Source: Agromyces ramosus (GTDB lineage Bacteria > Actinomycetota > Actinomycetes > Actinomycetales > Microbacteriaceae). Taken from it: a stretch of DNA of 64,000 nucleotides. Under the pieces are notes generated by a model. The model worked only from the letters and a program-made list of their open reading frames with translations, was not told where the DNA came from and did no database searches. This document shows positions 61,359 through 64,000 of the stretch, in pieces (the first letter of the stretch is position 1; each line of letters begins with the position of its first letter). The position numbers were made by a program, and so were the translations under genes. The DNA is taken from contig NZ_JAUSYY010000001.1 of assembly GCF_030817175.1 (NCBI RefSeq), forward strand, positions 2,480,001-2,544,000, given 5' to 3'.

Positions 61359-62378
61359 GTGTCAGAGGAGCCGCAGCGGGGCCGCGCCCCGAGCATCCGC
61401 GATGTGGCGCGCCTCGCGGGGGTCTCGCACCAGACCGTGTCGCGGGTGCTGAACCATCACCCCAGCATCCGGCCCGAGACGAAGCAGCGCGTGCTCGACA
61501 TCATGGCCGAGCTCCAGTACAAGCCGAACCGCGCCGCCCGCGCGCTCGTCACGAGTCGCTCGCGCACCATCGGCATCCTCTCGGCATCGAGCACGCAGTA
61601 CGGTCCCGCGTCGAGCATCGCCGCGATCGAGGCGGCCGCGCGCGCCTCCGGCTACTGGGTGAGCACCGCGAACATCGAATCGTCGGATGCCGCGACGATC
61701 GCCGACGCCCTCGCCCACCTGGCCGCGCAGGGCATCGAGGGACTCGTCGTCATCGCGCCGCAGGTGCGGGTCTTCGACACCCTCGCGTCGCTCTCGATCG
61801 ACGTGCCGTACGTGACGATGCAGTCGACCGGGCGCGACCCCGACCACGCCCTCTCGGTCGACCAGATCGCGGGCGCCCGCATCGCGACGCGGCACCTCAT
61901 CGACCTCGGCCACCGCGGCATCTACCACCTCGCCGGCCCGCAGGACTGGATCGAGGCCGAGGCGCGCATGCGCGGCTTCCTCGACGAGATGAGCGCTCAG
62001 GACGTGCCGACGACCGCGCCGATCCTCGGTGACTGGACCGCGGAGTTCGGCTACTACGCCGGCCGCGAGCTGCTCACCGTGCGCGACTTCACCGCGATCT
62101 TCTCGTCGAACGACCAGATGGCGCTCGGCCTCATGCACGCGATCCGCGACGCCGGGCTCGAGATCCCGCGCGACGTGTCGATCATCGGCTTCGACGACAT
62201 CCCCGAGGCGGCGCACTTCTGGCCGCCGCTCACGACCGTTCGCCAGGACTTCGCGGAGCTCGGGCGCCGCTGCGTGGCGCTGCTTCTCGGCGACCTCGAC
62301 CCCGCGGCGCCCGACTACCGCGGCACGATCGTGCCCGAACTCATCGTGCGCGCCTCCACGGGCGCCCCGGCGTTCTGA
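61359..62378 (+). CDS. LacI-family regulator of the arabinose operon (AraR-like)
   Basis: 339 aa. HTH: SIRDVARLAGVSHQTVSRVLNHHPSIRPETKQRVLDIMAELQYKPNRAARALVTSRSRTIG. Effector domain: AARASGYWVSTANIES, RIATRHLIDLGHRGIYHLAGPQDWIEAEARMRGFLDEM and IFSSNDQMALGLMHAI. It sits upstream of the ara genes, with TGTGAnCGnTCACA-type operators shared between its own and the araB promoters. GTG 61359 has no strong ribosome site. Confidence 0.92.
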   Translation: MSEEPQRGRAPSIRDVARLAGVSHQTVSRVLNHHPSIRPETKQRVLDIMAELQYKPNRAARALVTSRSRTIGILSASSTQYGPASSIAAIEAAARASGYWVSTANIESSDAATIADALAHLAAQGIEGLVVIAPQVRVFDTLASLSIDVPYVTMQSTGRDPDHALSVDQIAGARIATRHLIDLGHRGIYHLAGPQDWIEAEARMRGFLDEMSAQDVPTTAPILGDWTAEFGYYAGRELLTVRDFTAIFSSNDQMALGLMHAIRDAGLEIPRDVSIIGFDDIPEAAHFWPPLTTVRQDFAELGRRCVALLLGDLDPAAPDYRGTIVPELIVRASTGAPAF

Positions 62379-62523
62379 AACCGGCGGGCTCCCGCCCGGG
62401 CGACGCATGCCGCGCGCGACGCTGCCCGGGCCGCTCCACCGCCGGGGCGTCGGGGCCGGCGAGCGGCGAGCGGCGAACGGACGCGGCATCCGCCCGGCGT
62501 TATCGTTCCGTGACCTCACCGAG

Positions 62524-62593
62524 TTGACAGGTCGAACGTCGATGTGGCTAACATGAAACTCGCCATGTGAACGGTCACATCGAAGCGTCACAT
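62524..62593 (+). promoter_or_regulatory. Promoter and LacI-3 operators of the ara operon
   Basis: TTGACA (62524-62529) and TAACAT (62549-62554) form a candidate -35/-10 with 19-bp spacing. Immediately downstream is ATGTGA-ACGG-TCACAT (62565-62580) and a further half site GCGTCACAT (62585-62593), the same words as at 61254. The rest of 62379-62647 is noncoding. Confidence 0.65.
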
Positions 62594-62647
62594 TGCACGA
62601 AGACCGAAGCCTGCGACCTGAAACGCCCAGACGAAGGAGTCCACACC

Positions 62648-62776
62648 GTGAGTGTCACGCCCGCCGATGAGCACCTGAGCACCGAACGCGGTGCAGCGAA
62701 CGAGGTCGGCGAGCGGTACGTCATCGGTGTCGACTACGGCACCGAGCACGACGGCGCCGAGGCGGTGACCGCATGA
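62648..62776 (+). pseudogene. araB: araB (L-ribulokinase) remnant, in-frame internal deletion
   Basis: Only 42 residues. The first ~32 end in ERYVIGVDYGT, the N-terminal phosphate-binding motif of FGGY ribulokinases. Instead of continuing for the family's ~550 residues the frame reads [10 protein letters not shown] and stops. The GTG start with AAGGAG, the frame, and the ATGA overlap with araD (62773-62776) are all preserved. It cannot be a kinase. The neighbouring araA is truncated the same way. Confidence 0.8.
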
Positions 62777-63579
62777 GCAGCTACGGGCCCCAGGTCGAGG
62801 TGGCGATCGCGCGAGTGCGGGCAGACGTCGCGAAGCTGCATGCCGAGCTCACCCGGTACGGCCTCGTCGTCTGGACCGGCGGCAACGTCTCGGGCCGCGT
62901 TCCGGGCGCCGACTTGTTCGTGATCAAGCCTTCGGGCGTCTCGTACGACGAGTTGGCACCCGAGAACATGATCCTCTGCGACCTCGACGGCAACGTCATC
63001 GAGGGCACGCCGGGCAGCGACCGGTCGCCGTCGAGCGACACGGCGGCGCACGCCTACGTCTACCGGCACATGCCCGAGGTCGGCGGGGTCGTGCACACCC
63101 ACTCGACGTACGCGACCGCCTGGGCCGCCCGCGCCGAGGAGATCCCCTGCGTCATCACGGCGATGGCCGATGAGTTCGGCGGGCCGATCCCGGTCGGGCC
63201 GTTCGCGATCATCGGCGACGACTCGATCGGCCGCGGCATCGTCGAGACGCTCAACGGCCACCGCAGTCGCGCGGTGCTCATGCAGAACCACGGACCGTTC
63301 ACGATCGGCTCGAACGCGAAGGATGCCGTGAAGGCCGCGGTCATGGTCGAGGATGTCGCGCGCACCGTGCACCTCGCCCGCGAGGCCGGCGCGCTCATCC
63401 CCATCCCGCAGGAGTCGATCGACCGGCTCTACGACCGCTACCAGAACGTCTACGGGCAGGCGAGCGACGCGCGCCGGCCCGAGTCGGCGGAGCAGGCCGA
63501 GCCGGCGGAGCAGGCCGAGCCGGCCGAGCAGTCGGACCACCCCGAGCAAGCCGAGCAGAAGGAAGTCAGCGCACGATGA
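62773..63579 (+). CDS. araD: L-ribulose-5-phosphate 4-epimerase
   Basis: 268 aa. Class II aldolase/epimerase fold: [45 protein letters not shown]; zinc histidines in [14 protein letters not shown] and [21 protein letters not shown]. It converts L-ribulose-5-P to D-xylulose-5-P. A C-terminal low-complexity tail (about 236-268, EQAEPA repeats; two perfect 18-bp units at 63487-63522) is unusual. Both ends overlap the araB and araA stubs by ATGA, so it is the only intact ara enzyme here. Confidence 0.93.
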
Positions 63580-63707
63580 GCCGCACCCCTCTCCTCACGG
63601 CGAAGGTGGCCGAGCTGCTCGTCATCGACGAGCAGACCACCCTCCCAGACTTCCAGCGCGAAGTGCGCTGGAACCAGGCCTACTACCGCCTCGCGCAGGG
63701 CCTGTAA
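63576..63707 (+). pseudogene. araA: araA (L-arabinose isomerase) remnant, in-frame internal deletion
   Basis: 43 residues: MSRTPLLT, resembling the N-terminus of actinobacterial AraA, joined directly to [21 protein letters not shown] plus [11 protein letters not shown], the C-terminal ~35 residues of the ~500-residue enzyme (ELLVIDExTT...LRWNxxYY is its conserved end). The start overlaps the araD stop (ATGA) and the normal TAA is kept. All catalytic residues are missing. Confidence 0.8.
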
Positions 63708-63849
63708 CACCCACAACTCAACACGCTTGCGACCTCCGCATTACCCGAGCGGATGCCGCGGGGGAGCCGGCTTTCATGGACGAAGCCTGCTCCGACTGTC
63801 ACCAAGACAACGACGTCCAAGACGGACACACACAGTGAAAGGACACACC

Positions 63850-64000
63850 GTGAAGAACACGAAGAAGGTGCTTCTCGCAACGCTCGCGGCCGGTTCGATG
63901 CTCGCGCTCAGCGCGTGCGCGGGCGGCGCCGGCGGCGGAGGCGGCGAAGGCGGCGGCGACGGCGGCCTCATCGGCGTCGCGATGCCCACCAAGAGCTCGG
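63850..64000 (+). CDS. Sugar-binding lipoprotein, ChvE/XylF-like (cut by right edge)
   Basis: 50 residues visible. Lipoprotein signal with lipobox MLALSAC (Cys near 23), a Gly-rich linker, then LIGVAMPTKSS, the first strand of ChvE-type multiple-sugar binding proteins (family 2). GTG 63850 has AAAGGA upstream. Its position after araA suggests it supplies L-arabinose; the ATPase and permease genes would follow outside the window. Confidence 0.82.
   Translation, partial: MKNTKKVLLATLAAGSMLALSACAGGAGGGGGEGGGDGGLIGVAMPTKSS

Follow-up and report, generated by a model that had tools for sequence, protein, structure and literature searches.

The last part of the window (the window being the whole stretch of DNA analysed here, 64,000 nucleotides from Agromyces ramosus) holds a repressor gene, an intact araD gene placed between two short open reading frames and the beginning of a gene for a sugar-binding protein. 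The features of this region, all of which are on the forward strand, are listed below.

61359..62378, + strand: gene for an araR1-type LacI-family repressor of 339 aa, recognised by a profile match to NF007075; a homologue is found upstream of the operon in relatives.
62524..62554, + strand: putative promoter-like sequence TTGACA ... TAACAT, from a reading of the sequence and by-eye likeness in the upstream regions of relatives.
62565..62580, + strand: palindromic operator-like site ATGTGAACGGTCACAT, followed by a half-site GTCACAT at 62587-62593; 35 of the 37 relic loci described below have a TGTGA(A/C)CG(G/T)TCACA site upstream of the relic.
62630..62639, + strand: ribosome-binding site of the former araB, GACGAAGGAG, which matches the site of the full-length araB in the congener G036.
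62648..62776, + strand: araB relic of 42 codons, consisting of the AraB N-terminus to YVIGVDYGT and about the last six codons.
62773..62776, + strand: ATGA stop/start overlap of the araB relic and araD1, read from the sequence.
62773..63579, + strand: araD1, gene for L-ribulose-5-phosphate 4-epimerase (268 aa), by profile match; the compared motif residues are intact.
63576..63707, + strand: araA relic of 43 codons, consisting of about the first 8-10 and the last 31-34 codons.
63708..63849, + strand: spacer with predicted hairpins and the chvE ribosome site (fold of 63708-63860, z-score -3.1).
63850..64000, + strand: start of a chvE-type sugar-binding protein gene, which leaves the window; gguA and gguB come next.

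The assignment of araD1 is based on a match of 382 bits to NCBIfam NF005123 (cut-off 251) and that of the chvE-type gene on 533 bits to NF040907 (ChvE; cut-off 460), and the repressor scores 271 bits with the LacI-family subfamily model NF007075, which is below the cut-off of 340 bits. In the comparison with named genomes, the nearest relatives of this araD are from Agromyces species. The araB relic starts with GTG at 62648, has its own Shine-Dalgarno (SD) sequence (GACGAAGGAG), is open throughout and stops with the TGA at 62774-62776, and the start of the araA relic overlaps the stop of araD1, again by ATGA. When the two stubs were aligned with the complete araB-araD-araA operon of G036 (locus L120), a congener, their starts and last codons matched and their middles were absent; further, the last 31 residues of the araA relic are identical to those of the full-length AraA of the same genome, and at the nucleotide level the relic and the full araA are 98.9% identical over 91 bases. 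Since a Pfam search of both stubs gave no match, their identity rests on the congener alignment. A preliminary description of this DNA had recognised araB and araA as in-frame stubs around an intact araD, with an ATGA coupling on either side, and had proposed that their likeness to AraB/AraA termini be checked by alignment; the stubs are real by sequence and by the alignment with the full operon of G036, where this likeness was found, and both overlaps are present (at 62773-62776 and on the 63576-63579 side). In araBDA operons with chvE-gguAB, such as that of G036, the repressor, operator, gene order and transporter genes are the same as here, but in the present case araB and araA are stubs and the kinase and isomerase genes are found in a second operon. 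Only araD is of full length at this locus and the complete kinase/epimerase/isomerase set is absent from this operon, which, within the overall explanation developed below, is best explained as a partly dismantled araBDA-chvE-gguAB operon. Two minor features are also of note, viz. the tail of araD1 (63463-63576), which is a Glu/Gln/Ala/Pro-rich repeat that varies in length and sequence in other araD1 copies, and the spacer at 63708-63849, parts of which look alike in congeners.

The second operon was missed in the preliminary description, because the second araD, the kinase gene and the complete araA lie outside the window. The genome is a single contig of 4.01 Mb, and a 20-kb stretch of it (L002) carries, in this order, chvE, gguA, gguB, a second araD, an FGGY kinase gene, araA and a second LacI-type repressor gene; the second araD, the kinase gene and the full araA are located 4-8 kb past the window, or about 5-9 kb downstream of araD1. 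In this second operon (operon II), araA encodes a protein of 507 aa, which scores 796 bits with the L-arabinose isomerase model (cut-off 622). The FGGY kinase matches the ribulokinase and xylulokinase models weakly (xylulokinase 89 bits, cut-off 380), and its substrate is therefore surmised from the neighbouring genes. A canonical ribulokinase was also sought elsewhere in the genome, but the longest match to the AraB of G036 among five FGGY loci shows 28% identity, and the FGGY gene of operon II is therefore taken as the kinase. The search of the rest of the genome for full-length araA and araB, which had been proposed earlier, hence yields araA, and in place of a canonical ribulokinase this FGGY kinase. 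Because operon II has araA and a kinase gene, the pathway genes are present in the genome. The second araD (L002:8403-10730; G000:C1:2548403-2550730) has an apparent one-base frameshift relative to araD1 and reads into the kinase gene as a single frame of 775 aa; if this frameshift is real, no araD other than araD1 is intact, and the genome's third Aldolase_II match lies within a much longer frame. The frameshift aside, the identity of the two araD copies, which lie some 5.6 kb from each other, is 97.6% over 674 bases, and they share a long stretch free of differences, which suggests a recent gene conversion between them.

The survey of the reduced arrangement covered 34 stretches from 27 of the 36 congeners, 78 loci of named genomes (from the best 80 of 561 candidates) and 80 loci of the family, drawn from the better chvE matches (188 of 398 Microbacteriaceae genomes had a match). 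A locus was counted as reduced if araD lies directly upstream of chvE and no full araB or araA is present between the repressor (or the contig start) and chvE; after four duplicates were removed and three Cryobacterium loci added, 56 of the examined Microbacteriaceae loci show araD straight upstream of chvE-gguAB without full araB/araA. Locus L209, where araD-araA occur in another context, is outside all counts. An araA (PF02610) match is present in all 56 genomes with a reduced locus (the genome studied here, 37 of 37, and 18 of the 20 in a second batch, of which the other two, G035 and G036, match too; in G459, a draft genome, it is split into two pieces that lie at contig ends), and thus the reduction goes with redundancy. 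The tree of the transporter and repressor proteins requires at least 12 changes between the full and the reduced states, and the reduction has therefore probably recurred in the family, gains and losses being indistinguishable on this tree. Within the genus, the full operon of G036 branches among reduced ones in the FastTree tree, a placement that is compatible with several losses and with one regain alike. In L178 and L230 araB is lost and both araA and araD are kept, which suggests that araB can be the first gene to go.

If the araB relic serves to bring ribosomes to araD, then its reading frame has to lead into the start of araD whatever its length. In 37 of the 56 reduced loci, a short open frame begins after the former ribosome site of araB and continues in frame to araD, with which it overlaps by 4 bases (ATGA in 22, GTGA in 12 and TTGA in 3 loci; in L101 this overlap is seen after moving the mapped araD start by three bases). 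The lengths of these relics range from 9 to 55 codons with 22 distinct values. In the remaining 19 loci araD lies behind the araB site either directly or as a fusion, 14 of them being assigned by script and five, which are without the motif, being judged direct by eye; in the 14 scripted loci the site opens the frame of araD itself, in four cases with extra N-terminal residues. Three of these four (L049, L059 and L156) have AraB-like N-terminal residues joined in frame to AraD, which is another way in which the loss of araB can end. No out-of-register relic was found among the 56 reduced loci, and three more in-register relics were seen beyond this set (G035, L178 and L230). Two spacers of the same 37 loci served as controls: the distance from the operator to the relic start falls 15/13/7 into the three classes modulo 3 (two loci have no operator), and that from the araD stop to the chvE start 14/12/11. 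On the tree of transporter and repressor proteins the relic length has changed at least 23 times, and the chance that 21 changes would all be in register, at 1/3 each, is (1/3)^21 or ~1e-10, a figure to be taken as a guide and not as exact in view of shared ancestry, gene conversion and starts chosen by SD motif. The independent events are fewer than the loci because of shared ancestry, and gene conversion may spread relics. The relic starts were placed by an SD motif in 34 of the 37 loci and by hand in three; as the starts were picked in this manner, the presence of an SD sequence in the relics is so by construction. The three frames of the relic span contain stops in 0, 30 and 4 of the 37 spans, and as one of the alternative frames is thus open in 33 of 37 as well, openness by itself says little and it is the register that carries the argument. 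The araB relic and araD1 of the present locus have the make-up expected of a coupled pair, viz. a stop/start overlap and a first open frame that is uninterrupted and has its own ribosome site.

The anatomy of the locus, its redundancy, its recurrence in relatives and the conservation of register are direct observations, and on this comparative sequence evidence it appears likely that the araB relic has been kept as a natural leader cistron delivering ribosomes to araD in a partly dismantled operon. According to this proposal, araB and araA would have become redundant beside the second operon (araD-kinase-araA) and would then have been deleted; ribosomes would enter at the former araB site, translate the 42 codons, stop at the ATGA and restart at araD, and selection would favour a relic that is open and in register but would not act on its peptide. 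We infer that ribosomes truly couple here and that a loss of coupling would cost araD expression. As 28 of the 32 junctions between full-length araB and araD (three duplicate pairs included) show a 4-base overlap, araD was probably coupled to araB before araB was lost. The araD start is without an SD core of at least 4 bases in the usual place in 24 of the 37 relic loci; a weak SD is present at the other 13, which exceeds the background (464 of 4480) and counts against the coupling reading. After the loss of araB, good translation of araD would require that ribosomes from the araB site still end at the araD start. Three outcomes would keep araD supplied (a relic in register, an araD that follows the site directly, and a fusion), and the same three are seen. 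Selection for araD translation, one of the readings offered in the preliminary description, is thus retained as the best one, its araB side being backed by 37 of 37 relics in register.

It may be asked if the stubs are instead neutral fossils, i.e. products of one ancestral in-frame deletion that were inherited without having any role. The wide occurrence of the reduced operon in the genus would agree with this, as would the drift of the relic peptide and the fact that AraD itself has lost conserved residues in eight of the 37 loci with a relic. The drift was followed in pairs of relatives. In six non-overlapping pairs of equal relic length, taken from twelve pairs computed, differences at the three codon positions number 17/19/12 in the relic versus 19/14/212 in araD (215 codons), and synonymous/non-synonymous codons number 9/28 in the relic versus 208/20 in araD, so that in these pairs the relic peptide drifts and AraD is conserved. 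However, one inherited deletion does not account for 22 different lengths that are all in register when the flanking spacers are not (the ~1e-10 given above), nor for the 12 or more changes of state on the tree, and the stubs are unlikely to be fossils of this kind. Translation of the relic could also serve mainly to keep the RNA unfolded or to shield the transcript from termination or decay, and not for a restart at araD; the leader is GC-rich and strongly folding, and translation protects transcripts in some bacteria. However, relics of only 9-13 codons keep the exact 4-base overlap, which is needless for mere coverage, and we assign a low probability to this possibility as well.

A regulatory leader peptide or attenuator, in which stalling of ribosomes on the short open frame would sense a signal and set the output of araD and the transporter, is an explanation that we hold to be quite improbable. 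The short frame does follow a strong ribosome site, the operon does have a repressor, and the leader region folds better than its shuffles (z -3.0 for a single minimum-energy fold). However, the relics, 9-55 codons long, have no peptide or stall motif in common across the relic loci with the exception of L126/L136/L145, an Rfam search of 62380-64000 with E up to 1 gave no match, and 19 of the 56 loci are without such an open frame. In the three exceptional loci, the relics show 0-1 differences in 75 bases at 24-36 third-position differences in araD, a near-invariance that favours a leader peptide there and goes beyond what coupling alone accounts for. The only other match to this relic among the examined loci (duplicates aside) is a 29-base piece in L231. 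An artefact of assembly or sequencing that took out the middles of araB and araA, which had been raised earlier and for which the near identity of the two araD copies, separated by about 5.6 kb, could be responsible, is very improbable in a single-contig genome whose congeners have the same reduced order with different junctions and other relic lengths. It is also scarcely credible, although the local araB and araA are stubs, that the strain gave up isomerising and phosphorylating arabinose and that its AraD uses ribulose-5-phosphate from another route, as had been suggested, for the full araA and the kinase gene (its substrate deduced from its neighbours) are on the same chromosome.

Relics of araA were recognised in seven loci (the present one, L044, L072, L075, L077, L110 and L113), some of them by eye only, and on these seven rests the contrast between araA and araB. 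An inner stop is present in two of them and the natural stop is lost in one, and the araA relic is probably a fossil under no constraint. The earlier argument that two deletions, both in frame, are unlikely by chance consequently holds for araB and is weak for araA, because three of the seven recognisable araA relics are broken in these ways.

Termination-reinitiation at 4-base overlaps is established in other organisms (PMC6728339), and the present junctions share with the coupled pairs of PMC6728339 and PMC10666635 the co-directed ATGA/GTGA overlap and a weak or absent internal SD; however, the known upstream partner is a working gene, whereas here it is the remnant of a gene. Upstream open frames that serve only for ribosome delivery are discussed in a review (PMC12548453), and the short upstream open frames and MIRU insertions with -4 spacing treated there are similar in that the present relics, too, would do no more than bring ribosomes to the next gene; the present ones differ in that they come from a deleted enzyme gene, are recurrent and are free in length and peptide. 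The bicistronic design cassettes of synthetic biology (PMC5995908, PMC10367133) have the same succession of ribosome site, short leader cistron and target gene, but the present arrangement is natural and a product of gene decay. Judged by titles and abstract openings, literature searches on gene remnants, leader open frames or operon decay with coupling yielded no paper in which relics are retained for the sake of coupling. The finding is one of ordinary gene loss exposing a constraint that is rarely visible, and it represents a variant of translational coupling and not a new kind of system. As a natural experiment over many species, it bears on how far gene loss is held back by coupling (a gene may be lost, but its frame has to stay), it suggests a possible origin of tiny open frames at operon starts, and it provides dozens of natural leader cistrons of varied length and sequence that are directly testable as expression parts. 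For the family as a whole, we lean with some reserve towards the view that decaying operons repeatedly make, out of a first gene that has been lost, a leader cistron that is locked in frame, free in sequence and has ribosome hand-over as its sole function. If this is correct, then gene fossils would provide natural bicistronic cassettes, which may hide behind many small 'hypothetical' open frames at operon heads, and where araD decays too, the relay may pass on to chvE.

What happens to araD itself bears on this last point. In araD1 of the window every compared His, Asp and Tyr residue, the roles of which we take to be those in E. coli AraD, is intact. However, the AraD proteins of 18 of the 56 reduced loci are without at least one of these residues, including those of the eight relic loci noted above, where the register is kept and the need for the epimerase is doubtful owing to the loss of conserved AraD residues; such loci count against the epimerase itself always being what is protected. 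In 11 of these 18 loci the araD frame ends -10 to +20 bases from chvE, for which reason an onward relay to chvE is conceivable. A degraded or divergent araD ending near chvE is seen in L180, L196, L198, L202, L203 and L208 and in the loci of the genus g80; relic loci with an intact AraD differ in this regard. As a rule, a relay of register to chvE after the loss of araD is not borne out among the 29 loci without araD before chvE, several of which have araBDA behind the transporter. The old ribosome-site motif is found far upstream in 10 of these 29: in five of the ten a 14-codon open frame stops 127-128 bases short of chvE, another two lack a start, in two (one duplicating the other) the frame ends 5 bases before chvE, and in L181 it overlaps chvE by 4 bases. 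In four other araD-less loci, chvE itself is directly behind the motif. The genus g80 (L168, L172, L173, L177, L183 and L197) has divergent AraD paralogues of 42-58% identity in the reduced operon; the HTHS motif is present in five of the six, and the Asp of SSDT and the terminal RYQNVYG tyrosines are absent in all six. Being common to several species, these paralogues have perhaps acquired a new function.
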